Assembly: GCA_902728285.1 (NCBI GenBank)
Contig: CACVBU010000363.1
Span: 62,001-126,000 of the forward strand
DNA from: Clytia hemisphaerica
Taxonomy: Eukaryota; Cnidaria; Hydrozoa; Leptothecata; Clytiidae
Direction of reading: 5' to 3'
Length of the DNA stretch: 64,000 nt
A model generated the notes under the pieces. The model saw nothing but the letters and a program-made list of their open reading frames with translations, was not told the origin of the DNA and made no database searches. This document shows positions 9,501 to 33,041 of the stretch, piece after piece; the first letter of the stretch is position 1, and each line of letters begins with the position of its first letter. The translations under genes were made by a program, and so were the position numbers.

Positions 9501-12500
9501 AAAAGATTTTACCAAACATCACAAAAGGTTAGTTAAATCGATTAGAAACAATATAGGCTATTCGATAAAAAAATTGTACCCACTATGACGAGGAGTGACC
9601 CCTGATGAATAGTTTTGCGTCAAAAGCAACACAAAATTGTAAAAAATATTGTCTCCCTATAGTGCCATCCGCGAAATCAAGTCCCATGAAATCTTAAAAT
9701 TTCACGGATGAGCTAAACCACGAAATTTAATCTCTCGAAAATCTTATCCCATTAAAGTATAACTTAATTTTTTCCATAACTTATCAACTGAGCATATTGT
9801 CCATCAGCTCAGTAGACTTTGTTAACAATTTTCGATTACTAGAACTCAACATAGCTCGGGCTTCGAACTATAGAGAGGGATGGTTCATAATTTCGTTTCG
9901 CATACGAAGCATATAAGTTTGCAAGGTGCTTTTTTAATGCTCCTTGAAAGAAAGCGAGATTTCAATGGTAGAATGGGTGTTTTGGAGTAAAATGAAATTT
10001 TATAAAGTCTATGCAGTTTGAATATATTAATATGTCCATTATGGTCTTTACACATAGGGTCCGAGGTGACTTACCAAGATTGGATGAGGGTACCTTCATA
10101 TTTTCGAGAATTGATCTCAGATGAAGTTGTTAAGAACACAGAGGCTATAAAACAGATGATCATTAGCTACAAAGAGGCGTAAGTAGATACAATTCTATGG
10201 TACTCATGTAAAGAGTTGTGCACATGTAAAATTTGCGTTGCTGGCAAAAAAGTGGTCTGGACAAATAAATATGCACCATTGCAATGTCTCCTAACATAAT
10301 ATCACGGACCCGATAGCTGATTGCTGATTAGTTTTTCAAATGACGTATTGACTTACGATGTTTACCACCAAACATCTGTTAGATCTACACGTTCTTTCTT
10401 TTGAACAAACTATATAAGGATAGAGACTCTGATGGCTAGAATATTTAGAATAAGTTTAAAACATTTTAAGGCTTTGAAGACTCTAAAAACGCCCTATTTC
10501 TTAAGAAATTATACAAAAATACCCAGAAAATAAGAACATTTTTAGGCCTAAAATTTAAAAATTTTACATATTTATAAAAAAAAGTGTACGATGTTAGGGT
10601 TGCTACGATCCTGGACAGAACTGTTTGTCCACCCCCCCTCCCCCAATATCAATGTTGATGGTGAGTCTTGTGAAAGTGCAAAAATTCAACTTCAACATTG
10701 ATTTTGGGAGAGAGGGGGGGGGCTTGCCGGTGGAAAAGGGTTATTGGACACCAGTTTTGACCACGATTATATGTGTATTTACACTTCATCATTTTTAGCT
10801 CATATCCTGATGAGAAATCATGGGAGAATGTGAAAGAAGATCTTTACAACAATCCAACACGTGTTCGAAAACAAACAGAACCACTTTGTCAAAACACCAA
10901 ACCCGTTTGTGGAGCAGGCCGCTATCTCCACCACGGAGTCTATTCACAATCACCATGGATACGAAATTATGGTTGGCATTGCCGTTCGTGTGGTGAAAAC
11001 ATGTTTAAAGACAAAACAGGGGATACAGATTGTAAGCCCTGTCATTACCCACTCATAACAAATGCTTTAAAAACAATCTGCTTTGACCCATACACCAGTT
11101 TCTTTTTATCACTCAATGAACCATTGAGCTATAGCCTCTTCATTACCTCCGTCATATCATTAGCATTCATTATCTCCACAATGTTGATCTTTGTGAGAAA
11201 CCGTGATACACCGATAGTAAAAAACGCAAACAGACCAATGACTGCACTTCAGTTGACCTCGCATCTAGTCCTAAGTACACTTTCCATCTACTTGATTATA
11301 ATACCGCCCAATGCTGGACAATGTTTTCTCACTCCGATCATTGCAGGACTCTCCCTCACCACAGCTGTTTCAATCAATTTGGCCAAAACACAAAAAGTCT
11401 ACACAATCTTCCAAAAGAAAACGCACCGACATTCAGCTGGTCAAAGGCGTTTTTTAGGCCTTTTAGACTGGTTAGTGGTCAGTGTTCTACTCAGCGTCGA
11501 CGCTTTTATTTTGATTATCTCATATTCCGATTTGAATCCCGAAATCCAGTATCAGTATAAAGATTCCGATTATACTAAAGTGGTAACATGTAACAATGAT
11601 ACACATATTATTATTCAATTGTTCTACGTGCTACTCATCATATTAACCAATGCGATTCAAGCGATCAGGTCACGTGGTCTTCCCTCATATTTCAAGGAGA
11701 CAACGCATGTTATTTACTCCTCCTTTATATCAAGCGTTTTACTACTCACCGCCACTGGAATTTATTTTGCACAGAAAGGTCTGGTAACCAAAGACATGAT
11801 TTTGGTGCTGAGCATACAGACCCTGAACATTTTGAACTTCATGTTAGTCTACAGCTATAAGTTATATATTATAATGTTGAAACCGCGTAAAAATACGGCA
11901 GCAGCTTTCAGCCAGAAACGAAAAGAAGCATTCGAGATGAAGTTTTCCCGCACTTCGACAGATGTTTCAAATACTACTCTATCATCGAATAATGCGAAGG
12001 AAGCTTCTCAAAAGAAAGATATGATGGCAAACAAGTTTGAAAAGAAGGCTCGGAAAAAAGTCCAGTCAAATAGCAATGAAATGCTCTCTAAAGAAACCTG
12101 AAGATGAAGGCAAAGATCAATGCGCTTATTTTGTGAGAAGTTAAAACAGTTCTACCACTGATCTACAATTAACAAAGAAATGAAAGATAGATAGAGTGGC
12201 TATCTTTACGTGGATAGCCAAATAATCTATGACTTTTAAGCAGTCTGTGGAATGTTTTTACGAGGTCACGGACGGTCAGCTGGATCGGCTAAAAACTGAA
12301 CGGAATATTGGAAGGAACGAGGATTCGAATAACAAAACCCTGGTGTGTGGCGCTGACGCTTTAACCGCTCGGCCATCGGCCCTTAATGATTGAAATGGTA
12401 TATTCAACCTTCCTCTAAACTATAATTTATCCTTTAAACTAATGTAAATTCAACCGTGCACAGTTTACTGATATAGTGGAGTCTCCATAACTCGAACACG

Positions 12501-15500
12501 CACGGGGAAACCAAATTTGCTCGAGTTATGGTTTATAAAGTATTGTTAGCTGAAGGGACTAGAAAACCTGTTCGAGTTAGGTAAGTAAGTTTTCGACCGC
12601 AGTTGAGGGCGACCCAAAGGCTCCCTTTTCGCATAGCTGTCCGAATAATTGGGCGCCACTCCTTTCCCTGCATTTCTTCACTTACCCTTGATCCGTCTCT
12701 TTAGTTGCTGAGCATCAAGCAGAGAGGCATCAAGTACCATTTTGGGAATCTTTGGTATGACCCGGCTGGGGATCGAACCCACAACCTTGCGCACCGTAGC
12801 TGGATGCTCGACCTTCATGCTACGGTCGCTTCGTTCTTGTTCGAGTTAAGGAAACATTCGAGTTATGAAGGCTCCACTGTAAAATAATTATTTAAACTAC
12901 TGAGTAAACTTTAGAGTTAAAAAAAAGAAAAAATTCTTACCTTTAAATTATGTTCGTTCTTTATCAGTGAATATACCACAGTAACCAAGTCTTCCATTGA
13001 TCCGTGATTGATGACGTAAGTAACACAAACTCGTACCCATATCTCTTTATCAGTAATTTTATCAGAAGTTTGAGTAAAAAGCCATTGAAACACCCTTTGA
13101 TGGCCTGGAAACAATTGGTTAACAATATGTAAAGCCAATGAAAGTTTTTCTTCCACGTCGTTCGCCATCTTATCCCAAGTTTCATAACAAAGGTTCGTCT
13201 CTATGAACAAGAAAACATAAAAATATTTGCGAGCCGTCTAAAGATCAAAACAAATTCGATTTTTATAATTACATCATCTTTGTCATAGCATACACTAACA
13301 TTAAAATCAAAAATCGAGAAACTAGAGACATTTTCCGATGTTTTTTGCGCGTTATTTAGACACTTAGTCAGGTCAGTGTTAAAATTTTTTGACCAAATCT
13401 TCTGGAAATAGCAGCCCAGAGGGGGCGCAAATTTTAGATTTTTCGAGGTGTGAAAAAGGTACCCTTACCAATCGCTTCTTTAACGGACTCACGACGCCCC
13501 GTTTGTTATTCTTTTAATTTTTACTAAACCCCAGACCTTATTAGGGCCCTCCATTTATTAAGCTGTTAAAAGAAGAGCCTCTCATTTTGCGCTAAGGAAC
13601 TTGATTATAGTCTACAATTACCTTATTTTGGGGGTATTGTGAGGTACAATTTCCAAACCCCGGCAATTAGGCCCCCCGTTTTATTAAAACTTGAAGACTT
13701 TTTCCAACCCTTGCGTTTCGACATGAAAAACTAAATACAAACCATTGGCAGTGGTTGCCAGGTCTCCAATTTCTTCGCTGGATGCTTCACAGCAAATGAA
13801 AGTCAACAATTCCATTTCATTACCACTGTATGATCGCAATAAAAGCGCTAAACATGATTGAATGGTGTCCGAAAATAAAGATTCACTTTCTTGTTGAAAG
13901 CATCTCAGTTTCATTGCAACTAAAACCTAAAAGGTAAGCGTTTAAAGGTTTTGATTTTAAATTTAAGAGTGATATCATTTTCTTACTCATCAATTTTGAT
14001 TCACAAGCTTTTTCACATTGAATTGACACAGATGTGGAGCAAGATTGGCCAGAAAGGGGAATCTTACTCATCAATTTTGATTCACAAGCTTTTTCACATT
14101 GTTTTGACACGGATGGGGAGCAAGATTGGCCAGAAAGGGGAATCTTACTCATCAATTTTGATTCACAAGCTTTTTCACATTGGATTGACACGGATGTGGA
14201 GCAAGATTGGCCAGAGCAGAAAGGGGGAAAAAGAAACATTTTTTTGCTTATATCAGCATAATATAACAATAGGGAGACACTGTCATGATATGAAATATGT
14301 GTCTATATGAAACGAAAAGCGAAATATTAAGTAATTGGTGTTGTGTTAAGCAAAGAAACAGACTACCTAGGCATTATTCAGACAGACACGTTGTATGTAA
14401 TGTACTAATAATTCTTCCATTTTCGGAAGAAGAAAAATACAATTGTCAGACAAAACATCACAATAGATACTTAAATGTGAACTGACAACCATTTTAGATG
14501 TCCAGGTACCAGTACAAGACCGTGATAAGAATTGGGCGATGATGAAGTTGACAAAGATACAATATTTGATAGGTGACAAAGAAATAACATACCAATATTT
14601 GCTCATGATCATTTTGTACCATTAAATCATCGTTCGAGGTCAAAACAGTTATCAATGTGTTTACAAATCTTTCAATGGTTACATCAAAGTTCGGTGAAGA
14701 CTTGATTTGACCAACAGCTTTGGAGATGTTGGAATCAAGCTTGCTAGCACACGATCTCTTATATTGTTCGATTCTTAAAATGTCACGTTTAATAAACGAG
14801 CCAGTGTTATATGGATCTAGCTTGACTGTATTGTTTTTTTCCTGGTCATCGAGTAAACAATCGAGTCCAATGAGTAAATAGATTATAGATTCTCCTTGGT
14901 CATGATTAGCTGTTAGCTCCAACGTGGATGTTAGATTGTTAAAGAAGAGTTGAACATTTTTGGAACAGTAGTTCAAAGTGCAACTTGCAATGAAATTAGG
15001 GCAATACTCGGTGAACGTGTATTTGATGAAGGCTTGCCGAAGCTGATGGTGGTTCTGAGGAGCTTTGTTGAATTTCTCACATAAATGATTGACCAATTTG
15101 TACTTTTTCGATTCTGGCAACAAAAATAATACCTGCGAAATTTAAAGGAAAAACAAGCATACAAATATTCATCTTGTGGAAACTTCCAAACCTGAATGCT
15201 TTTGGAAAAATTATAAATATACCTAAAACAACTGCTTTCTTCTCAAGCTACAAGCATTTATATCACTTTGAAGTTTACCATTTCAAGTACGGTTTGAAAA
15301 TTTGCACACTTGAAAGATTAAAACCTGAACAAAGCGTTGATACAATGAAGTCTTCATAACTCGAACACGCACGGGAAACGCAAATTTGTTTAGAGTTAAG
15401 TAAATTTCGATTAACGGAGTATGGTTTATAAGGCACTGTTAACCAAGGGGACCATGAAACTTACTTGAGTTAAGGAAGGAGACATTCGAGTAATAGAGGT

Positions 15501-15873
15501 ACGAGTTAAAGACAACCCACTGTATAAAAAAAGAAACACCCTTCTTTGGGGAAGGTATAATTGAAATAAAAGAAACAGTCACCTTTACAAAGTCATCTTC
15601 CATTTCCAATATTTCAACAATCTGGCAGACATCTTGTGTCTCCAAGTTACCATGACAACCGAAACCAAATGTTTGACTGTGTTTATTTGACGAAGAAAAT
15701 GACCAGCTTTTCAGTAACCAAATGATGAAAGACTTTTGTTGATTGGTATCTTTACTTATGAAAAACGTGTTCTTTATTTCGATGCATACTTCTTTCAGGT
15801 TTTCTTCATTCGATTTTGATAGCAAGAGTAAACACAGAGCTTTGATTTCATTTGATAAATTCATATTTTGCAT
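512..15873 (-). CDS. Large helical-repeat-like protein, identity unknown (3' end beyond window)
   Basis: Exons inferred from splice sites and matching phases: 15873-15583, 15132-14593, 13926-13743, 13200-12941, 3404-3114, 2822-2652, 1681-1207, 1095-1062 and 939-512. Every junction keeps one open frame, which supports one gene despite the 9.5-kb intron holding a GPCR gene on the other strand. The product exceeds 780 residues and is almost entirely leucine-rich amphipathic helices, with no signal peptide or clear transmembrane segment, like ARM/HEAT-type proteins. I do not recognise the family; a meiosis or DNA-repair ARM protein such as MEI1 is only a guess. The start is the first ATG after an acceptor-like TTTTTCAG at 15892. 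The 34-nt exon 1095-1062 is the weakest link. Exon 939-512 contains a 231-bp MITE (686-916) that puts a stop in frame, so this allele may be disrupted. The last donor at 511 shows that more exons lie to the left. Confidence 0.65.
686..916. mobile_element. PIF/Harbinger-like MITE, 231 bp
   Basis: The two ends are near-perfect inverted repeats of about 25 bp (AGGCCGGTCTCCACTTTCGC and its complement). They are flanked by the 3-bp target duplication TTA (683-685 and 917-919), as expected of the PIF/Harbinger superfamily. There is no transposase. Subtracting the element and one TTA restores a continuous open frame in the host exon 939-512. Confidence 0.8.
1700..2600. other. Intron sequence, no gene seen
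   Basis: This is intron between exons 2822-2652 and 1681-1207 of the helical-repeat gene. It holds G-tracts and diverged AT-rich sequence. I see no coding potential or clear element termini. Confidence 0.5.
4735..5660. repeat. Long imperfect inverted repeat (foldback)
   Basis: The arm at about 4775-4875 pairs with the arm at about 5513-5615. Shared blocks include CATAGCTTTGAGCT, a TGGTCTAAAA segment and GTCTTAGGATTTT. Weaker similarity runs further outward on both sides. The loop holds a copy of the TGGACCTACC transposon. The true outer ends are uncertain. Confidence 0.6.
4969..5499 (+). mobile_element. TGGACCTACC-type non-autonomous DNA transposon, copy 1
   Basis: The left end (GCTAGATACTGAATGGACC) is nearly identical to the start of the copy at 38814. 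The right end carries GGTAGGTCCA, the complement of TGGACCTACC. The interior has CCGGCATTTTCGGCCGGAA-type palindromes and a short GACGGACGAAC microsatellite before the right end. No transposase is encoded. Confidence 0.7.
7827..8140. mobile_element. MITE with GGGGGGTGGAC-containing inverted repeats
   Basis: The ends form an inverted repeat of about 42 bp (GGGCCATTCCATTTTATGAC and its imperfect complement), possibly flanked by ATT on both sides. The interior repeats CAGGGGGT with short spacers. It lies just upstream of the GPCR gene. The 64-78 aa open frames here are by-products of the repeat. Confidence 0.65.
8336..8342 (+). promoter_or_regulatory. TATA-box-like TATAAAG
   Basis: TATAAAG lies 54 nt upstream of the GPCR start codon at 8396, in an A-rich stretch. 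It is a plausible core promoter element, though the transcription start is not known. Confidence 0.4.
8396..12101 (+). CDS. Class C G-protein-coupled receptor (metabotropic-glutamate/CaSR-like)
   Basis: Three exons, 8396-9527, 10058-10178 and 10799-12101, join in phase into 851 residues. Order: a hydrophobic signal peptide (residues ~8-28); a ligand-binding Venus-flytrap-type domain (FDIIGLFTI ... INAYGIVDRI, as in mGluR-type domains); a cysteine-rich linker (~450-515, CQNTKPVCGAGRY ... CRSCGENMF ... CKPC); seven transmembrane helices (~528-780); and a basic, Ser/Lys-rich cytoplasmic tail. The class C hallmark NRDTPIVKNANRPM follows helix 1, and a YKLYIIMLKPRKNT motif follows helix 7. The ligand cannot be named: the orthosteric residues are too diverged to read by eye. 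The length fits complete family members. The gene lies wholly within an intron of a gene on the opposite strand, and its own introns are short. Confidence 0.9.
9630..9780 (+). repeat. Dispersed repeat, related to 20660-20790 (inverted)
   Basis: The block TAGTGCCATCCGCGAAATCA followed by CACGAAATTTAATC and CATTAAAGTA matches, in reverse complement, the block at 20660-20790 (CGCGGATGGCACTA ... TTTCGCGGTTG). It lies in the first GPCR intron. It looks like a member of a MITE family; the ends are not defined. Confidence 0.5.
12298..12387 (-). other. tRNA(Ser/Leu)-like pseudogene or SINE head
   Basis: On the minus strand an A box (ATGGCCGAGCGGTTAA) and a B box-like ATTCGAATCC are spaced as in a long-variable-arm tRNA. 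The acceptor and T stems do not pair, so a functional tRNA is unlikely. Confidence 0.4.
12474..12879. mobile_element. mariner-type MITE containing a tRNA-derived SINE
   Basis: The ends read AGTGGAGTCTCCATAACTCG and its near complement, flanked by TA on both sides, as for Tc1/mariner elements. A sister copy lies at 15343. The interior (about 12600-12835, minus strand) carries a SINE-like block with a perfect B box GGGTTCGATCCCC and an A-box-like region. Confidence 0.7.
13951..14320. repeat. Tandem 81-bp repeat (three units) in a dispersed element
   Basis: Three units of 81 bp (for example AAGATTGGCC at 14041 and 14122) each contain TCTTACTCATCAATTTTGAT and TTTTTCACATTG. Flanking sequence on both sides, as well as the unit itself, recurs once at 24738-24915. 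Because 81 is divisible by three, all units stay open on both strands; I take that as a by-product. It lies in the intron between exons 15132-14593 and 13926-13743. Confidence 0.75.
15343..15522. mobile_element. mariner-type MITE (sister of 12474-12879)
   Basis: CAATGAAGTCTTCATAACTC at the left and a CCCACTG end at the right, both next to TA. The first ~50 bp match the MITE at 12474 (TAACTCGAACACGCACGGG). It lies in the first intron of the helical-repeat gene. Confidence 0.65.
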
Positions 15874-16013
15874 TTTTTTTGAATAAATTGTCTGAAAAAT
15901 AAAAACTATATCAGCAAGGATGTCGAAACGAGGATTGCATAGCTAATTTAAGCGGGAATTTGATGCCAAAAATTTGTTAGTCTTTGTGAACCTTTAAATG
16001 CCCAATTTTAATT

Positions 16014-16019
16014 TTTATT
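16014..16019 (-). terminator. Poly(A) signal AATAAA of the TMEM223-like gene
   Basis: AATAAA on the minus strand lies 176 nt downstream of the TMEM223-like stop codon (16195) and about 120 nt upstream of the acceptor-like TTTTTCAG that precedes the next gene. Confidence 0.45.
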
Positions 16020-16194
16020 AGTTCTCATAACAATCAAGCTGCGGTTCCGTACTCAAATTTCAAAATCTTGGGTTATGGTATTTTCTTACAAAACAGAAAA
16101 CGAAAAAATATACAATAAAATCAAAAAAGTAAAAATTTCTATTTAAAAAATAATACTTATTCAAAATTCCTTGACTATCTTTAAAATAATTATG

Positions 16195-19100
16195 TCATTT
16201 TTTGACCTGTCCAAAATTTCTACTTATACCAACTGTCCGATCGAAGAGAGTGGGTTGTAGAAAATGTCCACTTTTGTCAACCAAGAAATGAAAACGATGA
16301 TTCTTCAACTTCAACGGTATGTTACCAGCTTGCGCTGAAAATGAAAAAATGTGCAGTGAGTCTCGCTAATTCGAACTCGAACGAGGAGTCTATTTTGTTC
16401 GAATTATAGAAAGATTCGGATTATTGAAAGTATTTCACGAGGGTTTCTCCTTGACGGGGAATGAAGAAAAGTTCGAATTATAGAAAGAGTTTGAATTAAA
16501 GAAAGATTCGAATAATAGAAGTTTGAATGAACGAAAGTCCACTGTAATTCAATTTAGTGTTGTCGTCGGATTCATACATCTCTACGAAACTGCAGTTAGT
16601 AAAGAAAAATTCGTTAAATACAGTGTGTCCCAAAAAGAAAAGTGGACACATTTTTATATAAAGTAAAATCCTCATAATCATGCGAGGCTTTATGACTTGT
16701 ATACTTAATATTTTAATCTCAAAAACCTATTCAATCATCTTCGGAATGGAATATCTATTGATTGACGGGGAATTTCAATCTTATTTCAATTATTCTAAAC
16801 CCACTTTAGATAATGCGTTTTGAGGACTTCACTTTATGAAAAATGTCCACCATAGGGTCGTCCAGGGTTCAGGTACCCACAAAAGATTTAGGTACCCCCA
16901 ATCATTTTGGTACCCCAAAAATCTTTAGAATTCTAAAGTAACCCCCCAACTTTGAGTTACCCCCTTTTTAATTATTTTATTGTTAAAAATACAAAAAGGG
17001 ATTTTTTGCTCTTTTGTCATTCCTGGGAAAATACTTCCATGGCAGCCAGCACTTCTTTTTCAACAAATTCAAGGGTGTCATTTTTTACTATAATTTTCCA
17101 GGGTTTCAAGAGATTTTTATTTACTACAAACTTTCAAGGGTTTCTAGGGTTTTTAGTTGATCTTTGCTAGTTTTCAAAGATTTCAAGGAAATCTGTCGAC
17201 AAAAGGAGAAAGGTTGAATTTTCAATTTTTGTGTGAAGGAGGGTCCTTAAATTGGCTGATAATTGTAATTGATAATTTTACAACCACCCATTCTATCACC
17301 CAGACCTGCCAATCTCATATAATTCCAGTGGCACTTAACGGGTTAAAAGGTAAGCCCCCTAAGAATGAGCGTGGAATATCCCCTTGAGTCTCAGGGGTTC
17401 CAAAAGTATGTTCTCTCATTTTTAAGTCACTGCGATGTTTGTATCCCACGCAATGGGAAAAATTTTGTATTTCTGAAAGTTAAAATGGCTGAAAATGGCC
17501 ACAAAATTTGGCATTTCAAGGGTTTCAAGGGTATAAATCTTGCATGTCAAGGGTCCCCAAAATAATATTGACTTTTCAATGTTGTTTCAAGGGTTTCAAG
17601 GAATTCAAGGGTGATGACTTCAGACAAAAACAACAGCCCCCGCCCACACTAATGAAAATTCAGGTACCCCCAAACATATCAGGTACCCCCTAAATTTAAG
17701 AATACTTCTAGGTATCCGGCTTTTTTAACACTTTTTTTCTTTAGGTACCCTCAAATCTCTGGGGGTGGGGGGTGGATCCTATGTCCACTTTTTGGGACAC
17801 ACTGTAAATGTCAGTACAGCACCACCATCTTGTGACTTTTTGATTTTGTTTCGGAAGTAATAAGCATACATGATCGATAAATGGAAATGAATACTGCCAC
17901 AAGCTCAATATCTGTATGGCTGAGAAGTATAAACATGAACGAGAAGAAATGTACACAAGGCACAGTAAATCTAACTTGTGCGCTGTTGAATGGCTGAGAC
18001 TTCAGTAATGGGCGTGATCGTTTTGAAAGGTGTTCCTACGGGCGTTATTGTATTGATTAAAACATTCGAGCTGTTCTTCATCAATGTGATGGATGTAACT
18101 GATCTGAAAAAGGAGAATATATTGCGAATAGACTTAATCATACGAAGTGTGAACCCATATAGTCTTTTTTTTAGTTCAGTAAGTCTTCCGTAAGAAAAAT
18201 TCCCTTGAGGTTGAAACTTCACGAATCTTATGAGGCTTTGGTAATTTGGGGTAATAACGAAGATAAGATAAGAATTTGCTGATTTCACATGTAAGTAGAC
18301 ACGGGGCTATGGGAGATTTCAGCCAAAATAATCTCAGGTGTTGGCCACCTGAAACCACAGGCGGGGCTGCAGAAAATCCATCATTTGAAGAGAATCATTT
18401 CAATAACATAACAAACCTAAGTGACAAGACACAAATGGTCACCAACATAGCGGTCGATGTACCAATCACAAACAATGAGAATCCAGCACGGTACTAAGAG
18501 AAAGAACAATTGAAATGACCTCTATAATGGAATCAATGGAATCAAGTCGATTCAAACTAAGGTCTAATGTTGTGACGAGCGACTTTCTGCCTCGTCTAAT
18601 AGCAAAATCTGACGACAGATCTTCAAACAAATTCATTACTCGACCAAGTAAAGTTATTGTATCATTAACTTAAGACGTCAAATTTGTGCTTTTCAATAGG
18701 AAATACCTAAATATCTTTATTGTATAAATTCATTCAACTATGGCTGTATAAAACTTGTTGTGCCTTTTTACGTCAAAAAGTAGTCAGACTGGTCAAATAA
18801 TAACAATGGGATGAAGAAACCTTCCAATCAGCTAATGGTAGACGTGTGCTTCCTTCTTTCCTTTTCTCCGACCTACAAAAAAAAGTTCAAAATCTAAATT
18901 CCTATACAAGAGGCATATTGGTATCATTCATAAGCTAATCGATGAACAGTTAACCGAAAAGGAGAGTCCAGGGCGACATATAACGTCAAAACAACGTTAA
19001 TGTAATATCCATAGCAGCCACAAAAACGAGTCCACCCCACTTGTTAATTTTTCGATTTTTTACAAACCTCCCTGGACCTTATAAGAACCCCTTTCGTTTA

Positions 19101-22100
19101 GTAATTTTTGCGAAGCGAATGTACATGAGCGAAGCAGTTTTGCTATCGTGTGTGCGTACCTTTAACTTTCCATTCTTTCAACCATCTGAAAGGCAGGAGA
19201 TGGGAAAAACGTTTAGTATCTCCGAGTCGCGCGACAATGAATATTAAGGGGATAAAACATGAAGGATATTCCAGGAAATGACAGAGAAAATTATCTCCAC
19301 TATATTAAATTTGACGTATTCGAATTTGAAACTCCGTGTATGACTACTTGGCTCGTATTCAATCGAGCTCCGAGCGAGAGAACAGTAGAGTGGCTTTTTT
19401 TGAGACGGACAACGTTATTTTTAAAGACACGTCGCCGGAAAACATCGGTGCGGTGCTCTATTCTCCTTGCAGATTGTAGAACGTCGCCCGGCTCGGAAGG
19501 GTCTTGATGATTAGACCATACTGGTTTCTAGCCGTCAAAACATTAAAGATGGCGGCAACAAATGGAGACAACAAATATGTACTGCTCCTCGGTTATTTTT
19601 CTTCGATTTTCATGCTTCAAGAGTCGAATTGGATCATGTTTTCTGTCTGATTGGCACAAGAACTGGTGGATGATAAAGTTTTCTTATTATACCTCCCTGG
19701 ATTTGATGTTTTGTTTCAATTCTGTTGGTTTGGAATGAGAGATGCATTTTCTTGAAAAAAACAGGACAAGTTTGCCAATTTTGACAACAAGCTAACTTGA
19801 ATTTTGCCTGTACATGTAAATGAATTGTAACAGGGCAAAAAACTGAATATTTTTGGAGAAATCTGACCATGTTGTGCCTGGAAATGAAACACTTGCAGCT
19901 TTAAAAATAAAAAAGTCTGAAGTTCCTTGCCTTGGCTTCATTCATTTTGTTGTTTGGAAAAATTTGAACCTGGAGCAAAATTAACTATAGATTGAATTTT
20001 ACTTGGTGCTTCTTCTACAACAATGACACTCGACTGGTAATTGAAACCTCTTTGAGGAGGAAATTATATACGGTAGCAGCTTATTTCCAACACTTTTGAA
20101 GCTGACAACCACAGCCAGGCGGCCTCCTGATGGGTGATGTTGATGAATAAATGTTATGTCAACCTCTGAAAAAGTAAGCTAATCGTAAAGACATTGAATA
20201 TGGATGTAAACAATCGGAAATCACCTTACATAACTTTTTAAATTAAAAGTTTTCATCGTAAACTTTGAAATGATCTTCCGTTTTGATTAAAATGTGGAAA
20301 ACGTGTCGTGAAATATGAAATTATCTTTAAAGAATTGGTTTAAACTATGGAAAACTTTTGTAGCAAACCATGAACATTTAATTTTCATGCGTTCAAAATT
20401 TGGAAAACTTTTGTCGTGAGAACATGCAGCTTGCTGGAAAAAATTTGTTTTGCTATTTTTGATAACTTTTTAAGATCATTGAAATAGAACTTTAAAGATG
20501 ACTTTTATGTACACAAACAGTATGAAGTAATCTATATGTATCAAGTACTAATGCACAAACTTTTAATTACAACTGGGTGAGAATATCTACTGTAAGAAAA
20601 CGACGTTTGATAGCTTGAACGGTCAACTTGCTTTTCTTTATGATGGTTCATATTTATAGTACTTTAATGCGATAAACTTTTGCAAGAATTAAATTTCGCG
20701 GTTGGGCTAATCCCCAAAATTGAAACATTTCGCGGGGACTTAATTTCGCGGATGGCACTATTGTGTGACAATATTCTTACAATTTTTTTGCCTGTACTGT
20801 CAAATCACATTGGTCGTTGGAATGCGTATTATTAGCACTTCTTTGATGCCAGTAAACATTCAAACAGTTTTTGAGTTTTGTTTTGAAATATTTTGCTGAA
20901 AAGGCCTACTCAAATTTTCAATGGGATTTAATTTTGCAGATTTTTGGGGATGACACCCAAATTTGTGAAATCCGCAAAATTTAATCTCCACAAATGTTTA
21001 TCGCATTTAAGTATATATTTTTGCGACCGGGTCAGAAAAAAAGTTTCGTCATTGGACCGGTTTCCGGTAACACTAAACTTTTTTATTTTCGCCTGAGCTT
21101 ATAATTTTTTTTTTGACATGCATCTAAAACATGGAAAACCTTTGTCGTCAACTATATATAATATTGTCTTCCACGTTTAAAATGTGAAAAACTTTTGTTG
21201 ATTACAATCGCAATTTTTTACGTACTAATTGAAAATAAGGAAATAATTCCTGGTACAGTATGAATTTTTTTTTCCTTTTTGATATCTTTTCTGAAAATAA
21301 GCCACCATCACTAATAACTGGTTTTTGCGCTGGTTTGTGTCGTTTTTAGGTTAAGAAATTAATTGATCGTTTGGTCGGCAGATAAAACGTCAGAAAAATT
21401 GGATTTTCAAACTATGTGTCGGGCAGAAATCAAATCCAACGAAAATATTGAATAAATAGCTACTGTATTGCAGTGTTCGGAAAATTAAGAAAAATATTAT
21501 CAGTCAGTTGGACAGCGCGAACACTAGTTATTTGTGATTGTGGCCTTATAAAATGTTTTAACTTTTCAGAATGCTTTTGAAATGGAAAATGGCTTCTGAG
21601 AGTGGAGTTTTTCCCTTTAGGGCATTCTTTCAGATTAAAACTTTTTTCCAAGTTTTTTTTCCTTTTAAACATTTTTAGTTATTCCGTTTTTTTGAAAATA
21701 TGAAATTTTCCTATTATTTGGAACTAAATGTTTTGCTTGCAACTTGCGAATCGAGGTGGCTCTGGATCGCTTCGCAACTTTTATACATATACGGCTTGTT
21801 AAAAAATATTTTCAGATTTCACCCCTCCCTCGTTTATTAGGGACCTGAGAGTATATCGTTCCATATGACAAAAGCTTGAGATTCCAAGATGTAAATTAAA
21901 AAAAACGAGGCTTGCTTACTCATCAATGGGGCATCCAACTAAAGAATACAGGCATGCTTTGAAACATGACTAAACTCATGTAACCAGTCACGAAAAAAAT
22001 AAGGTTTTCTTACTCATCAATGGGTATCCAGCTAAAGAAGGCAGGCATACTTTGAAACATGACTGAACTCATGTAACCAGTCACGAAAAAAAAGAGGCTT

Positions 22101-23786
22101 TCTTACTCATCAATGGGTATCCAGCTAAACAATGCAGGCATGCTTTGAAACATGACTAAACTCATGTAACCAGTCACGAAAAAAAAACGAGGCTTTCTTA
22201 CTCATCAATGGGTATCCAACTAAAGAAGGCAGGCATGCTTTGAAACATGACTAAACTCATGTAACCAGTCACGAAAAAAACGAGGCTTTCTTACTCATCA
22301 ATGGGTATCCAGCTAAAGAAGGCAGGCATACTTTGAAACATGACTAAACTCGTGTAACCAGTCACGAAAAAAACGAGGCTTTCTTACTCATCAATGGGTA
22401 TCCAACTAAAGAAGGCAGGCATGCTTTGAAACATGACTAAACTCATGTAACCAGTCACGAAAAAAACGAGGCTTTCTAACTCATCAATGGGTATCCAGCT
22501 AAAGAAGGCAGGCATACTTTGAAACATGACTAAACTCGTGTAACCAGTCACGAAAAAAACGAGGCTTTCTTACTCATCAATGGGTATCCAACTAAAGAAG
22601 GCAGGCATACTTTGAAACATGACTAAACTCGTGTAACCAGTCACGAAAAAAAACGAGGCTTGCTTACTCATCAATTGGTATCCAACTAAAGAAGGCAGGC
22701 ATGCTTTGAAACATGACTAAACTCATGTAACCAGTCACGAAAAGAAAACGAGACTTGCTTACTCATCAATGGGTATCCAACTAAAGAAGGCAGGCATACT
22801 TTGAAACATGACTAAACTCATGTAACCAGTCACGAAAAAAAACGAGGCTTTCTTACTCATCAATGGGTATCCAGCTAAAGAAGGCAGGCATACTTTGAAA
22901 CATGACTAAACTCGTGTAACCAGTCACGAAAAAAACGAGGCTTGCTTACTCATCAATGGGTATCCAACTAAAGAAGGCAGGCATGCTTTGAAACATGACT
23001 AAACTCATGTAACCAGTCACGAAAAAAAACGAGGCTTTCTTACTCATCAATGGGTATCCAACTAAAGAAGGCAGGCATGCTTTGAAACATGACTAAACTC
23101 ATGTAACCAGTCACGAAAAAAACGAGGCTTTCTTACTCATCAATGGGTATCCAACTAAAGAAGGCAGGCATGCTTTGAAACATGACTGAACTCATGTAAC
23201 CAGTCACGAAAAAAACGAGGCTTTCTTACTCATCAATGGGTATCCAACTAAAGAAGGCAGGCATGCTTTGAAACATGACTAAACTCATGTAACCAGTCAC
23301 GAAAAAAACGAGGCTTTCTTACTCATCAATGGGTATCCAACTAAAGAAGGCAGGCATGCTTTGAAACATGACTAAACTCGTGTAACCAGTCACGAAAAAA
23401 ACGAGGCTTTCTTACTCATCAATGGGTATCCAGCTAAAGAAGGCAGGCATGCTTTGAAACATGACTAAACTCGTGTAACCAGTCACGAAAAAAACGAGGC
23501 TTTCTTACTCATCAATGGGTATCCAGCTAAAGAAGGCAGGCATGCTTTGAAACATGACTAAACTCATGTAACCAGTCACGAAAAAAACGAGGCTTGCTTA
23601 CTCATCAATGGGTATCCAACTAAAGAAGGCAGGCATGCTTTGAAACATGACTAAACTCATGTAACCAGTCACGAACCATTGTCCAACACCAACCAATGTT
23701 AATAGTTTATTGAAGGCTGTGGATTTCTTATGCTCGTAAATCACTACATCACGTGGTGAATTGATGTACGTTCGATGGCGAAAGGC
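16195..23786 (-). CDS. TMEM223: TMEM223-like mitochondrial inner-membrane protein (first exon not found)
   Basis: Five exons with good splice sites and matching phases: 23786-23602, 18872-18821, 18493-18417, 18103-17976 and 16334-16195, giving 193 residues (human TMEM223 is about 200). Family landmarks in order: RDVVIYEH and the GQWFVTGYMSLV first membrane helix; WKYRAGFSLFVIGTS, the second helix; SVTSITLMKNSS; ITPVGTPFKTITPITEVSA; and the C-terminal block IPLKLKNHRF ... DKSGHF ... LFDRTVG. Known TMEM223 proteins act in mitochondrial complex IV biogenesis; the role here is inferred from the match. The short leader exon upstream of 23786 was not found. The intron after 23602 opens with the 19-unit array made from this gene's own exon end and donor. 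The last intron holds two mariner-type MITEs. Confidence 0.82.
16354..16544. mobile_element. mariner-type MITE
   Basis: The ends are CAGTGAGTCTCGCTAATTCG and a GTCCACTG terminus, with TA at the right. The interior repeats TTCGAATTATAGAAAGA. It lies in the last intron of the TMEM223-like gene. Confidence 0.6.
16621..17804. mobile_element. Non-autonomous mariner-type element, 1.18 kb
   Basis: The terminal inverted repeats (CAGTGTGTCCCAAAAAG and TTTTTGGGACACACTG, continuing into GTGGACA) are flanked by TA on both sides. The interior has AGGTACCCCC and TTCAAGGGTTTCAAGG repeats but no transposase-like frame. It sits in the last intron of the TMEM223-like gene. Confidence 0.75.
18880..21890. other. 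Intron sequence of the TMEM223-like gene
   Basis: Intron between exons 23602 and 18872. It contains a CGCGAAATTAAGT-type repeat (20660-20790) and several diverged copies of a GGAAAACTTTTGTCGT block (20.3-21.2 kb). No further gene was recognised; small open frames at 19.0-19.5 kb lack family resemblance. Confidence 0.5.
21896..23678 (-). repeat. Tandem array, 19 units of ~93 bp, derived from the TMEM223-like exon/donor junction
   Basis: I count 19 units of 92-95 bp; the length differences come mainly from an A-run. Read on the minus strand, each unit is TTCGTGACTGGTTACATGAG, the last third of exon 23786-23602, its GATGA|GTAAG splice donor, and the first ~20 nt of the intron (AAAGCCTCG plus a T-run). 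The rightmost unit (about 23585-23678) is continuous with the rest of the exon and is the authentic copy; the other 18 lie downstream as intron. Variants (ATG/ATA, CTCATG/CTCGTG, GCTTTC/GCTTGC) alternate between units. Confidence 0.9.
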
Positions 23787-24326
23787 CTGGAAACGAGAAC
23801 AGAAGAGTATACGTAATTCATATCATCCTCAAGGAGTTAGGGAGGGCTAGATGGAATACTATGGTTGAAAAATGTGCCGTGGTTATAGGTAGGAAATCCT
23901 ATCTAGGTCACGAGACATTGTATTTTTAATACAACAAAATTTCAGCGCTTGACCAAACAGAAGCGCACCGGATTTTCAAAAACAATAGTAACAATGTTTT
24001 TTTGCGATTTTCACTTTTTTGCTTGGAGAAGCGTTTGAAGCACTCTATCTAGCCCTTTGGACTTCTGTGAAATCTGTGGTTACCATACGCCAACACGAGA
24101 ATAACGCAACAAACTCAATTTTAGTGGCGAGCGGCAAATCTCACTCCAGTATTCAGTAGCTTAATGGTACTAAATTTATAGGCCCTTGCTTTATTCCTAT
24201 GTTGGAATTAATTTGCACTAAAACTATATGAAGGGGGTGGAGTGCGAGCAGACAAATGACGTCAGAAATGTCTACCAAAGTCATTATGCGGTTAGTAAAG
24301 AATGTCGAAACCACTGATCTTAAGTA

Positions 24327-24480
24327 CAGTCAACTCTCTCTAATTCGAATCTTTCTGTAATTCGAACCAAAATATTGGCCCCCTCAGCTGGAAAGTGAAC
24401 TACTCTTTGTAATTCGAACCTTTCTCTAATCCGAATAATATTCTTGGTCCCTTGAAGATCGAATTAGAGAGAGTCAACTG
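24327..24480. mobile_element. mariner-type MITE, 154 bp
   Basis: The ends read CAGTCAACTCTCTCTAATTC and its complement (ATTAGAGAGAGTCAACTG), with TA on the left. The interior repeats AATTCGAACC. Confidence 0.75.
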
Positions 24481-24737
24481 TGATCGAAGAATGATACCTT
24501 TGTTACCCTTGGTAGCCATTTGGATCCAGCGAATTGAGATGACTTTCTTATTCCAGTAAGAGAAAGGTGACGTAATGTGTAAAGCCACATTTACATGGTA
24601 TTTAGAAATTATTTTTATTTTTGTTCTATATTTCTGAAAAATAAAAATAATGATGCATTGAACGTACCTAAAAAAAATTTTATTTGACACTTTCAAGATC
24701 GAATATTTTAATTTAGAATATTTTCAGATCTTAAAGG

Positions 24738-24915
24738 CTTTGTTTTTAAATAAGAGTGATATCGTTTGCTTACTCGTCAATCTTAATTTACAAGCTTTTT
24801 CACATTGGATTGAAATGATTGTGGAGCAAGATCGGTTAGAAAGAGTTTACGTCAGCACAATAAAACAATAAGGAGATACCGTCCTGATATGAAACATGTG
24901 TCCAATATGAAACGG
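24738..24915. repeat. Single-unit copy of the 13951-14320 repeat element
   Basis: It shares AAGAGTGATATC, CAAGCTTTTTCACATTGGAT, GTGGAGCAAGAT and CCAATATGAAACGGG-type right-flank blocks with 13951-14320, but has one internal unit instead of three. Confidence 0.6.
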
Positions 24916-25607
24916 GAACACTTATGTAAAAATGAAACCTTTAATTTACCGTGGTAAACAAGGCCTAACTTATATGAGTTCTTTACAACGGAATTGCTTT
25001 TTTTTCGCAAACGTCCAATCTGGTTATGATAACACGCAAAAGTAGAGTCAAACGACTGAGGCTTGGCCTTTGCAAAATATACTGAAAATTATTGAAGAAA
25101 TATTTGATTGAAATCAAATACGACACACCCTTCTCACATACCCGGTTGGATTTTTTCAGCCAATTGGGAAAAAATAATGGACTGAAACTCGACGGGGCTT
25201 GGGATTTCAAATCTTTTGTTTTCAAGTCAGAAAATTCAGAGGGGATGGGGAAAATAGTAGATACTTTGCAGTGAGGATTGGTTTATTGGATTATTTTCAG
25301 TGTGGGGATATTTTCCACCGGGTACGATATTTTGGCCAATTTTTCAGTGGATCTGTGAGAAGGGGTGTAATAAGGAGTGTGTGTGCAGATGAAAAGGCAC
25401 GGGATGAAATATTTCAAACTGGTATCCCAATTTTTTAGAATATTATAACACAGTCTAATTGATAAGCCTATGAAATCAAAGCGCGATGTTTTGGTAGGCT
25501 TTAGGGCTATTCTGATAACAAAGAAGAATTCGATATAAAGAACGGGAGATTTAAAAAAATAATCAAGTTTTACATGTTACATTCAACTTTCTACAAAATT
25601 TGATGAT

Positions 25608-27425
25608 TCAACAAAAACAGTTTGGAAAATCACCACAGCATAGAGTTTGATCCAATGAAAAAGAATTCATTTCTTTCGATAATTGGTTAGGTACATTGAA
25701 ATCGACAGTTGAATTAAACTCAAATGCTTTACTCGCCGCCAGATGCCACACTCTTTCGAAATTCGGGTCCGATGCCAACAACGGTGAGTCTTCGCTGGGT
25801 CCAGTTACAAGGTCGAAGATAAGAGGTTTGCGTAATTTCTGGACCGTATCTCCATAACATTGATATGGCCTTGAAAGATCCTTGTGAATAATAAAATGTA
25901 TTTTCCAGACTTTTCCGATTTCTTTTTCTTCTAAAGTGACCGCATGAATGTTACTTCCACAATAGTGAAAGAATTCTCGATTCACGTGATTTTTCCGTCC
26001 AAAAAGTAGCTTGGAAATATCTTTTCCATCCAACTTATTATCGGGAAACTCAACGCCTCTATCATAGGAAACTCGCATGAGCGATAAAATAGTTGGAAAG
26101 ATATCCAATAAACTAACAGGTTGGTTCACCACCAAACCTCGTTTGAATTTCCCAGGCCACTGGAACATTAAAGGTACTCTTATACCACCTTCAAAACTGG
26201 TAGCTTTCCCGCCACGATAGATTCCAGGCCAACCTCCTTGACGCTCACCACTAATCAAATTATACATAATTGTCGCAGGCCCATGATCAGACGCGAATAT
26301 AACCAGTGTCTTTTCAGTAAGATTTAGACTGTGGATTTCACTCAAAATCTGACCAACACTCCAGTCTAGTTCAAGCATTGAAGCCCCGTACGAACCATGT
26401 TGACTCCGGCCGACAAACCGTTTCGCTGTAGCTAAAGCCACGTGCATTTTATGATACGAAACATAAGCCATGAATCTTTTATCTCGATTCTTGTTGATAA
26501 AAGACTTAGTCTCGTTCACCAAGTTAGCTGTAATACTCTCTAAATTTACAGTTTGCTCGACAACTTGGTTATTTCGCATGACAATGCAGTTGAATTGACG
26601 AATCAAATAAAAGTAAAAGACATGATAGCTGTACCATAAGATTGCAACCGTTAACAATAAAATAAACACAGCTCTGCGAAACGGTTTAAATACCAAGTAA
26701 CTCACAACAAAAGCAAGTAAAGAACCAAAGTAGCGATAAAAATTTACCACATTTTGGATGTGATACATTTCGCCATGTAATCCGTACAGCGGCGAGTTCC
26801 CGCATTCCATTGCGTTAGTTAACGGCATCCCGTAATAATAATCAAAACCTTTTCTCAACGGATGATGACAAAAATTTTCATCCTTGTGTTTAAAAGAAGG
26901 AATGTTTGCCTTATTCTTTTTGTGTGTGTTTTTCTTACCGCAATGCAAGCCTAGGTGCCATTTCCCGAAAAATCCGTTTATATAACCGTTTCGTTTCAAT
27001 ACTTCTGCAAACGTAGTCTCGTTCGGTGGAAGTCCTCCTTCAGCAGTTGTATATTTGATGACACGTGCTTCTCCTACTCCACGCGGTTCTAATCCAAGGC
27101 GCACGGGGTATCGGCCTGTTAGAATCGCAGCACGACTAGGTGTACATACTGGAGCCGCAGCTAAGGCGTGTGTGAACTTAACACCATTAGTACATAACGA
27201 GTCGATATTTGGTGTTTTGATTGTCTTGTTACCATAGCAACCGATGTCGGCAATACCCAAATCATCCACTAAGACGAATAAGATGTTAGGTTGATGCCAG
27301 GTTGTCTCAGCTCTGGTGAAGAGTGTCAGATATGTGAAGAAGATAAAGTGAAGATGATAATGCATCTGTAAACAGAAGAGAATTAGGATAATGATTATGT
27401 ACTTTTTGTAAGAACTAATCTTCAA
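25608..27425 (-). CDS. Steryl-sulfatase/arylsulfatase (STS/ARSC-type), membrane-anchored
   Basis: A single-exon frame of 605 residues, slightly longer than human STS. After an N-terminal hydrophobic signal segment comes the sulfatase core: [12 protein letters not shown] (metal-binding aspartates), then [14 protein letters not shown], the CxPSR motif whose cysteine is converted to catalytic formylglycine. GKWHLG, ASDHGP and [14 protein letters not shown] follow. [11 protein letters not shown] is followed by two hydrophobic helices (about residues 235-290), the membrane hairpin typical of STS/ARSD/ARSE-type enzymes and absent from ARSA/ARSB. The C-terminus [10 protein letters not shown] also resembles the STS group. 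Enzymes of this group hydrolyse sulfate esters such as steroid sulfates in the ER or Golgi lumen; the substrate is inferred from family only. A downstream N-terminal Met (residue 21) is possible. Confidence 0.92.
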
Positions 27426-27910
27426 ACCTAGAGTGTTCTTATGAAATTGGTTCTATGAAAAAGCACAAATTTCATTCTCTCAATAACAGATACTTCAAAA
27501 TTAGTAGCTCCTCCTCCACAAAGTTCGCAAAAAAACCTAACTTGAGTCTATAATAAAAATTGAATAACTTACTTTGGCACGAAATGCTGGCTTAAATTAC
27601 CATCCCAAAGTACCTATGTGTATTTTTTGTTTCTCTTATTTTCCTTACCTAAAAAAATAACAGTATCATTAAGTTGGGCGAAACTTTATGATTCCATTTG
27701 CAAGATGCCAAGCCAGAAGGATAAGTGATAAGTTAGGCGATGTTAGAACCTACAAGACCCCAAAATTTCGTGAATTCAAGTTTTGCAGTTTTTTTTCATT
27801 TAAAGAAATACAATAACGACGCAAAAGGAGCAGAATTCTATCTTCTTGAATTTCCAGTTTAACCTTCAGAAGTTTTAGAAGTTTCACTTATTCAACATGG
27901 AAACGGAAAG

Positions 27911-28174
27911 TAGCTAGGCTGCACGTATCCCCTCTGATATGTTTTTATATAAGGGATGATAATCGTGTATAAAACTCCCGTCCAAGAGTTACCCCCAAAC
28001 TTGGGGCGACCTGTTTCAATTCTCTTAAAAAGGTTTAGAAATGCAATGATTGTATTAACCTCTAGCCACTCAAAACACAAAGACACGGGGTACCTTTCAG
28101 AAGGGAATTTTATACAAGGATAGCATCCCATATATCAAAACATATCAGAGACAATAATGTGCAGCCTAGAGAGC
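27911..28174. mobile_element. MITE-like inverted-repeat element
   Basis: Left block TAGGCTGCACGTATCCCCTC with CTGATATGTTTT is the imperfect complement of the right block AAACATATCAGAGA with GTGCAGCCTA. The inner arms (TATAAAACTCCC and GGAATTTTATAC) also pair. No coding capacity. Confidence 0.55.
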
Positions 28175-30600: not shown

Positions 30601-33041
30601 TTAACTGGTCAAACCATACCGAATAAAATCAACAACATCTGCTTGGTTTTGATTCAAAAGTTCGGCAACCGTAACTTTATCATTTAATAAAAATTCTTGT
30701 CCAAGTAAACTTTCTTCTTTCGAGACATCATTACTTGGCTGCAAAGCTATTGGATTCATACCAATCACGTGCTGTGAGAGATCACGTGCAATTTTCTTTA
30801 AATTCTCCACATCAACATCTGTTGTCTTTGGTTTTAGTACCACAACACCGGCAAATTTACCAAGCAAGCTACCATTAGAAGTTACAGTGTTATTTCCACC
30901 ATGCGTAGAAACTCCAATGATATTTTCTTGGTTTGTGGTCATTGCTAACGCACGTTTTATCTTCATATTCTCACCGATCTTACCTACAAGTTGAACGAGG
31001 TGCTCCTCAAGGGTCACATCAAGCGATGGATGTTTCATCTCTTTCAAATCATGCTCTAAAACCATTTCTCTTAAATGAGTGATCTCTTGGTTTGAGGAAA
31101 CCTTCATGTTTTGTTCAATAACCTTTTGTCGGAATTTCAGAACAGACTGTGCAGTTGAACCAACTAGCTCAGTGAAGAGTTCATTACGTGCCACAAAATC
31201 TGTTTCACAAGCCACCTAAAGAAATTTCCAAAATATTTGAATTTGGAATAATACTACATCAACTTCAGCTGTTTGATGCTGGGAGAAATAAAAGAATTGA
31301 CTTTTTAAGAGGAAAAGGTACTTGCTGTTCAGAATAAGCAATATCTTTTAATGATAACAAGTGATACTTTTATGGACCTACCTGGTTACCAAAACTAACC
31401 AATGAACATTGAAACAATGAAACACATAAGACATAACTGGTCAAAATACAAAAATATATAAAATGAAAGCATATCTATTGGTAGAAATTATCAATACTAT
31501 TGAAAAAGACTTACGAAAAAAAAGTAAAAAAGTTATTAAACGCTTTTCTTTATAAAAACAATACACTATCAGAAAAACGCACAGCTTAATAAAGGTTTCT
31601 AGAAAACAAAAACGGCGATTTCCGGCATTTTCGGCCGGAAAAAATTTTTCGTCATGTTCATGTCATATTCTGTCATGTTTTGAGTATTGCGCATCTTTCT
31701 GCAAAAAATCAGAAAAAACTAAGGATGAAAATTCGAGAAAATGTCAAAAACCCGGTTTTTCCGGCATATTCCCGGCATTTTCAGCCGGAAAAAAATGTTT
31801 TTCGAAAATCGGGCTCCGTCACATTTTACGTATTGTCATTTTGCATCAGTGTGCAAAATTTCATAAAAAAATATAAAGTACAGCTCGAGAAATTCAAGAA
31901 ATACTGTCTTTCCGGCGAAATATAGGTTGTTCCGGCGATTTTTTAATAGTTCCGGCTTCAAAAATCAATTTTATTGAAAATTGAAACATGCTTGATGGTG
32001 GGCATTGCCATTAATAATGTTTATGGATGAAAAAACAACCAATTATAAGGAAAAAGTCTAATGAAAATTCAGAAAAACGGTGATTTCCGGCATATTTCCG
32101 GCATTTTCGGCTGGAAAAATTTTTTTCTCAAAAATCGGACCCGGTCATGTTTTGGGCATTGTTAATACGCATCTTTAAGCAAAAAATCAGAAAAAACTAA
32201 TGATGAAATCTCGAGAAAATGTCAAAAAACCGGTTTTTCCGGCATATATTTTTTTTTTCGAAAATCGGGCTCCGTCACATTTTGGGCATTGCCATTTTGC
32301 ATCTTTGTGCCAAAAACCAGAAAAAACTAATGAGCCAATCTCGAGAAAAGCTGGTAACAGACGGACGGACGAACAAAGGTTAATTTATAGGACCTCCAGG
32401 TAGGTCCAAAAATGGGAAGAATTTAACCAAACCTCTACAAGTGCGATATAATTTTGTTCAGTCAAAACCCCAACAAGCCCTTCACTAGTTGACCGACTTT
32501 GAAGTTTCTTGGCTTTGGCCCATCCCTCTTTTTCAGCTTGCTGGTGTAACCATATTTCTGCTTTCTCCATGTCATTCTCGTAAAGTTTCATAGCTTCATT
32601 GCATTTAGTGAAAGAGTAGCCAGTCTTTTTACGTAATGTTGTCAATTGTTGTTTGTTGATTGCATTCAAAATTGAATTGGTTGAAAAACATCGATGATTA
32701 TTGAGAAAACCTTGAAACAAAAAGATACAACAAATAGTTTTAGTTATAAATATATTTAGTAAAATCATTGACATTATACTATGACACACTTTTACGGCTG
32801 GTCAAGTCAGATCACAGGAAGTAATCTTACATATTAATCGAAAAATGTTTACGAGGGAACATTTTGCAGGGCCATATTCCATCTAACAATGTGTTGAATA
32901 AGAAGGCCTCAGTTTCAAAACTCTATGCCATTTGGTACTGTCGATCTCAAATGTTTTTACTTTTAAACGTGTGAAGATTCCCCTATCAAGAACTTCAAAC
33001 TTACCGTGTAAAACCTTTCTCTGACGAAGTATTGAAGCCAT
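30601..33041 (-). CDS. TSFM: Elongation factor Ts, mitochondrial
   Basis: Three exons, 33041-33005, 32710-32433 and 31215-30601, join in phase into 309 residues, close to the ~325 of human TSFM. Exon 1 and the start of exon 2 give an arginine-rich, acid-free leader (MASILRQRKVLHGFLNNHR), a mitochondrial targeting peptide. Then comes the EF-Ts N-terminal UBA-like domain (LTTLRKKTGYSFTKCNEAM) and the hallmark VEVACETDFVARNE, split by intron 2. The rest is the dimerisation/core domain. The protein exchanges GDP for GTP on mitochondrial EF-Tu. Intron 2 contains a TGGACCTACC-type transposon whose right end lies just 25 bp from the donor side of exon 2. Confidence 0.95.
31373..32408. mobile_element. 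TGGACCTACC-type DNA transposon, copy 3
   Basis: The right end GGTAGGTCCA (32399-32408) and the CCGGCATTTTCGGCCGGAA, ATCGGGCTCCGTCAC and GACGGACGAAC blocks match the copy at 38814-40929. A TGGACCTACC occurs at 31373, but the first ~230 bp after it do not resemble the other copies, so the left end is uncertain. It lies in TSFM intron 2. Confidence 0.6.

Follow-up and report, generated by a model that had tools for sequence, protein, structure and literature searches.

A stretch of 64,000 nucleotides of the Clytia hemisphaerica genome (positions 62,001 to 126,000 of contig CACVBU010000363.1, here C257:62001-126000 and hereafter the window) carries on its minus strand a gene of the TMEM70/TMEM186/TMEM223 family, in which the intron behind the second exon begins with a tandem array of units of about 93 bp. 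Each unit repeats the end of that exon, its 5' splice site (donor) and the first bases of the intron. A preliminary description, made from the sequence alone, had drawn attention to this arrangement and had proposed that the array might titrate U1, alter donor choice or yield isoforms. Here, we determine the structure of the host gene and its array, compare both with a second copy of the locus on another contig (C672), and weigh what the array may do. The features of the locus are as follows.

24507..24590, or ending at 24498, minus strand: candidate start exon (tentative), with an ATG and an Arg/Lys-containing, presequence-like peptide
23602..23786, minus strand: exon 2, source of the array, ending GATGA/GTAAGC (the slash marks the splice site); PF06979 positions 1-39
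21899..23675, minus strand: array of 19 units of ~93 bp, from Tandem Repeats Finder (TRF) and unit-by-unit comparison
19110..21803, no strand assigned: insert of ~2.7 kb, from its absence in the C672 copy and its inverted repeats
18821..18872, minus strand: exon 3, with the acceptor at 18872; in-frame join and family match
18417..18493, minus strand: exon 4; in-frame join and family match
17976..18103, minus strand: exon 5; PF06979 positions 77-121, alone under the family cut-off
16195..16334, minus strand: exon 6, with the stop codon; PF06979 positions 121-157

Joining exons 23786-23602, 18872-18821, 18493-18417, 18103-17976 and 16334-16195 produced a single open frame of 193 residues, and this product matched the whole PF06979 profile of TMEM70/TMEM186/TMEM223 (positions 1-157, E = 5.1e-30, 105 bits against a cut-off of 22), which bears out the earlier assignment of the exon to this family. 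Exon 2 alone fell under the cut-off (E = 0.052), and a search for Pfam domains in 18301-28000, translated in its three minus-strand frames, did not detect the TMEM223-like gene. Searching the whole genome with PF06979 gave at least 7 matches, including two in the window at 18108-17974 (E = 0.39, under the cut-off) and 16335-16225 (E = 2.9e-6), both with counterparts on C672. Because the joined frame is open and matches the entire profile, the acceptor at 18872, which the preliminary description had named as the next one used, is well supported. A doubt that this might be the wrong acceptor, as the exon at 18872 alone shows no family-like peptide, was dropped on the same grounds. The start exon is one of six candidates from three start codons in an ATG-to-donor scan; this stretch with its flanks is identical to C672 at 127 of 128 positions, compared with 91% over the surrounding 1 kb, and exon 3 with 30-base flanks is identical at 111 of 112. 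Within the family the gene may be a TMEM223, a tentative label that follows the human sequence. In human cells, TMEM223 resides in the inner membrane, has two predicted spans and is involved in assembling cytochrome c oxidase (PMC8719881).

For the array, TRF reported a period of 93, 19.0 copies, 96% matches and a score of 3216, and measurement unit by unit gave 14 units of 93 bp, three of 94 bp and two of 95 bp, the 93-bp length of the last unit being preset in the script and the others measured. Every unit comprises the final 71 bases of exon 2, the GA/GTAAG donor and then about 17 bases containing a T run, the consensus being GTGACTGGTTACATGAGTTTAGTCATGTTTCAAAGCATGCCTGCCTTCTTTAGTTGGATACCCATTGATGA followed directly by GTAAG and then by the ~17 bases that include the T run. 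Only the rightmost unit is joined to the rest of exon 2, and the leftmost continues into a different intron sequence. In two respects the arrangement is that of a boundary variable number tandem repeat (VNTR): the end of the exon and the 5' splice site both lie within the unit, and the sequence and the gene model together place the true exon end in the first unit only and the remaining units in the intron. TRF and the unit comparison agree here with the preliminary description, which had read the units as exon end, donor and intron start, with one of them the true exon end. Its count of 19 units held as well; its count of 18 further authentic 5' splice sites did not, since the donor is GATGAGTAAG in 18 of the 19 units and the 13th unit reads GTTAG, leaving 17 exact copies of GTAAG and one GTTAG behind the true donor. 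In the frame of exon 2 the sequence past the donor reads GAT GAG TAA, so that a stop follows directly after the first donor, as had been noted.

We searched the genome by DNA (417 Mb in 951 contigs) for the unit and obtained at least 37 matches, 19 at the window locus and 18 at C672:1531792-1533446; the search returned two first-look candidates, both scored, and its counts are lower bounds. All 37 of the matches listed adjoin two copies of the same exon rather than lying at many unrelated places as satellite arrays do, and no homologous array unrelated to a TMEM223-like exon, which the preliminary description had named as grounds for abandoning its reading, appeared among them. The array on C672 has 18 units in an internal order that differs from that in the window, with GTAAG kept in 18 of 18. 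Its gene has the five exons intact and keeps the GT at all four of their donors and the AG at all five acceptors, and the two genes differ at 15 of 194 codons (stop included), 14 of these differences being synonymous and one nonsynonymous (dN 0.0022, dS 0.115, NG86). Because the exons are intact and the codon differences almost all synonymous, the array-bearing gene is, to judge from its sequence, one that has remained functional, with its protein under strong constraint in two copies.

The two copies are homologous from window position 13696 to 26363, where the right limit is the end of contig C672. Left of the homology break, a megablast comparison of ~91 kb of C672 (1436001-1527053) with ~76 kb of C257, retaining pieces of at least 250 bases, yielded just two short pieces, of which one is repeated. 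On the C672 side the break lies at a high-copy repeat that is itself tandemly structured (C672:1526454-1527050), located exactly where the homology of the gene copies stops. No second close copy was found for 26364-27452 or for 10761-12101, the best other matches being 68% over 182 bases and 70% over 715 bases. The C672 copy is either a diverged allele or a paralogue, so the difference between 19 and 18 units need not be allelic. The insert in the array-bearing intron (19110-21803, edges approximate) is missing from the C672 copy, bears a GCGAAGC/GCTTCGC inverted repeat near its ends, and has pieces 91-95% alike just beyond the window at C257:126412-129410; it looks like a recent DNA transposon.

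Comparison of the units gave some insight into the history of the array. Over 87 alignment columns, the mean number of differences between units was 3.36 within the window array (171 pairs), 5.34 within the C672 array (153 pairs) and 5.26 between the two (342 pairs), and variants at the exonic columns 14, 20, 36 and 54 of the unit segregate among units in both arrays. Because these variants are common to both, an array of many units was probably present before the two copies split, so that the gene would have kept its protein constrained while carrying one. The C672 array has a two-unit higher-order pattern (mean differences of 6.18 at lag 1 and 3.19 at lag 2), a sign of later block re-amplification, and this pattern is absent from the window array (3.17 at lag 1 and 3.0 at lag 2). 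Exonic variants of the units include stops and amino-acid changes, indicating no clear coding constraint on the units; most of the variant entries near unit positions 59-69 trace to two units whose one-base insertions put them out of register.

Taken together, we consider it probable that the array is a minisatellite of the exon boundary, one that arose passively through tandem duplication and is removed with the intron. A stretch of 93 bp reaching from inside exon 2 to about 20 bases past the 5' splice site would have been duplicated head to tail, joining the T run of the intron to the TTCGTGAC of the exon, and unequal exchange or slippage may then have raised the number of copies to 18-19. 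Every copy but the first would lie in intron 2 and be spliced out with it. The first donor, on the real exon, would be the only one to give a simple product with the full frame and, as the gene has stayed functional despite the array and its protein is under selection, is probably the one most used. Use of a later donor would keep whole units in the mRNA and, because TAA directly follows the first donor position, such mRNAs would be expected to encode a truncated protein or to be degraded. The array would thus be carried along mostly passively, at a possible price in correctly spliced mRNA that depends on copy number.

Some points sit less comfortably with a passive array. Where several identical donors are occupied at once, splicing often favors the intron-proximal one, which here would predict poor function. 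Moreover, variable columns are fewer in the exonic part of the unit than in the intronic part (15 of 71 versus 12 of 17, p = 0.0002), and the same contrast holds when the T run is left out (7 of 9 intronic columns variable, p = 0.001). Both arrays end in a unit that runs into unique intron, and dropping these two units weakens the contrast but leaves it, at 13 of 71 exonic versus 9 of 17 intronic columns (p = 0.01), or 6 of 9 without the T run (p = 0.005). Lower exonic variation would be unexpected for a purely passive array without some extra step; the units may have been copied repeatedly from the constrained exon, or their intronic part may mutate more readily.

Retention of GTAAG in 18 of 19 and 18 of 18 units, and the presence of an array at both copies of the locus, are also what would be seen if the many U1 sites at the start of the intron regulated donor choice or dose, through the U1 titration that the preliminary description had suggested or through purposeful truncated products. 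We regard a function of this kind as unlikely. Conservation is no stronger at the donor columns than at the exonic ones (1 of 5 versus 15 of 71 variable, Fisher p = 1), and RNA folds were ordinary in the three units folded (z of 0.09 to 0.41). Scored with a frequency table, the true donor reached 0.07 and most extra copies -0.27, values ordinary beside those of the other donors of the gene (-2.46, 0.15 and -0.36), and other GTs scored as well or higher: 8 of 155 in the rest of the intron and 11 of 146 inside the array equalled or exceeded the true donor. Six of those within the array are a different GT, AAAGTATGC, which scored 1.02 and occurs in 6 of the 19 window units and in 9 of 37 units over both arrays. 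A scan of U1 duplex energy was not used, being unanchored at the splice site and ranking unrelated GTs first. With about 19 sites per transcript, depletion of the U1 pool of a cell is implausible. Because donor strength, RNA folds and donor-column conservation are all ordinary, a designed U1 decoy finds no support, and on the same evidence neither does a programmed change of donor choice.

Each unit also contains an acceptor-like stretch resembling CCTGCCTTCTTTAG, 18 nt upstream of its donor, which raises the possibility of a ladder of latent mini-introns. Splicing from the donor of one unit to the CTTTAG of the next would remove ~75 nt and leave an 18-nt in-frame microexon, so that isoforms could gain blocks of six residues. 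The geometry is regular, with a donor-to-TTTAG spacing of 74-77 nt in 35 of 35 junctions over both arrays and a leftover block of 18 nt in 33 of these and 19 nt in two; the frame is kept and free of stops with one or two 18-nt blocks added, and the one-block product matches all of PF06979 at E = 9.4e-30 (5.1e-30 without the block). On the other hand, the acceptor-like stretch is ordinary coding sequence of exon 2, no clear branch point was apparent by eye, a block that happens to be in frame is expected about once in three by chance, and one donor of the window array is GTTAG. We therefore find such splicing improbable, and hold in the same low regard a broader form in which a donor would join the TTTAG of any later unit and exit from that unit's own donor, which would render nearly any of the 19 donors usable without meeting the TAA. 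If true, a splicing array able to rescue itself would have arisen from duplication of an exon end, lengthening a mitochondrial membrane protein by blocks of six residues. An error of assembly, with the repeat collapsed or falsely expanded, is very unlikely. Long, nearly identical arrays do assemble poorly, and the copy number may be some units off, but the second array is independent, and we reject an artefact on that ground: the two loci have separate arrays with private unit variants, a different order and an identical exon junction. Least credible of all is a dispersed repeat or satellite that landed beside the gene by chance. A neighboring high-copy repeat does share a 14-base word spanning the donor; the unit, however, consists of coding sequence from exon 2 of this gene, and none of the at least 37 matches listed lies away from the two copies of that exon.

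Arrays of this kind have precedents in human genes. In the human CBS gene, each copy of such a boundary repeat reportedly adds a usable donor. CBS carries a 31-bp VNTR, c.1444_1467+7(16_21) (PMC2630376), at the boundary of exon 13 and intron 13, where more repeats go with lower CBS activity and the repeat is termed non-coding (PMC5188458). Read from the notation, its unit comprises 24 exon bases and the first 7 intron bases, donor included, in 16-21 copies. Like the array described here, it spans the exon end and the donor, and its copy number is close to our 18-19; it differs in unit size (31 bp versus 93 bp, the latter with 71 exonic and ~22 further bases), in gene and in animal. Internal tandem repeats at exon-intron boundaries, which can alter splicing, were also described in genes of human segmental duplications, with 27 intron modifications (PMC2812944). 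These are likewise boundary minisatellites in duplicated genes, although their units average 30 bp in four copies and come with RNA evidence, whereas the present case is known from sequence. Because the CBS repeat and those of duplicated human genes have been described, the kind of element is already known, and the judgment that the array is neither an ordinary satellite nor a CRISPR stands with the qualification that minisatellites of this class have been described.

Two further systems are related less closely. In potato, duplication across an exon/intron boundary produced a new intron (PMC4974935), and there too the duplicated stretch supplies splicing signals; that case, however, involved one duplication over an intron-exon (acceptor) boundary and a new intron that was detected, whereas here there are 18 extra copies of a donor boundary and a potential read from sequence. 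The polyubiquitin gene UBC contains an array of dual-specific splice sites (PMC10809524) and resembles our array in having tandem coding repeats with splice sites in each unit. In UBC, a single sequence acts as donor and as acceptor, and the intron spans a whole number of units; here, the donor GA/GTAAG is not an AG/GT site that could serve as both, the latent acceptor TTTAG lies separately 18 nt upstream, and the latent intron would take up ~75 of 93 nt. Our literature search, covering titles and abstract openings, found no account of the present array or of any cnidarian case, and as far as it shows the gene, host, unit size and setting are unreported. The locus amounts to a classic splicing experiment performed by nature, with 19 nearly identical donors in one intron of which a single one simply gives the full protein. 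Variants among the units would in part allow the donor used to be read from cDNA, and with it the roles of exon definition, position and U1 occupancy. The boundary VNTR of the CBS type would in addition gain a representative from a further group of animals, one whose unit is larger.

The surroundings of the gene hold further repeats and one further coding frame. At 13981-14215, on the minus strand, a small tandem array (2.9 x 81 bp) lies within a high-copy dispersed repeat that has at least 41 matches, from 40 scored of 3314 first-look candidates. The 14-base word ATTGATGAGTAAGA is common to this 81-bp array and the 93-bp unit, where it spans the donor; in a post hoc test, none of 2000 mononucleotide shuffles shared even 13 bases. 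The sharing may be due to chance, or the donor region may have descended from the dispersed repeat. A single copy of the same repeat occurs upstream of the gene at 24731-24914, and its C672 counterpart is in the opposite orientation. An open frame of 614 codons at 25608-27452, on the minus strand, has matches to the sulfatase domain (PF00884, E = 1.7e-50) and the sulfatase C-terminal domain (PF14707, E = 7.7e-18), and contig C672 ends inside its homologue. Elsewhere in the genome, the mitochondrial contig C900 has COX1, identified by Pfam, together with cob, nad1, nad4L and nad3 as read from the sequence and its translations, and this gene order would fit a medusozoan. Finally, a tandem repeat of ~477 bp containing TTTCCGGCAT is present in several diverged copies at 38966-40826 and 31607-32377, with related stretches at 5096-5467.

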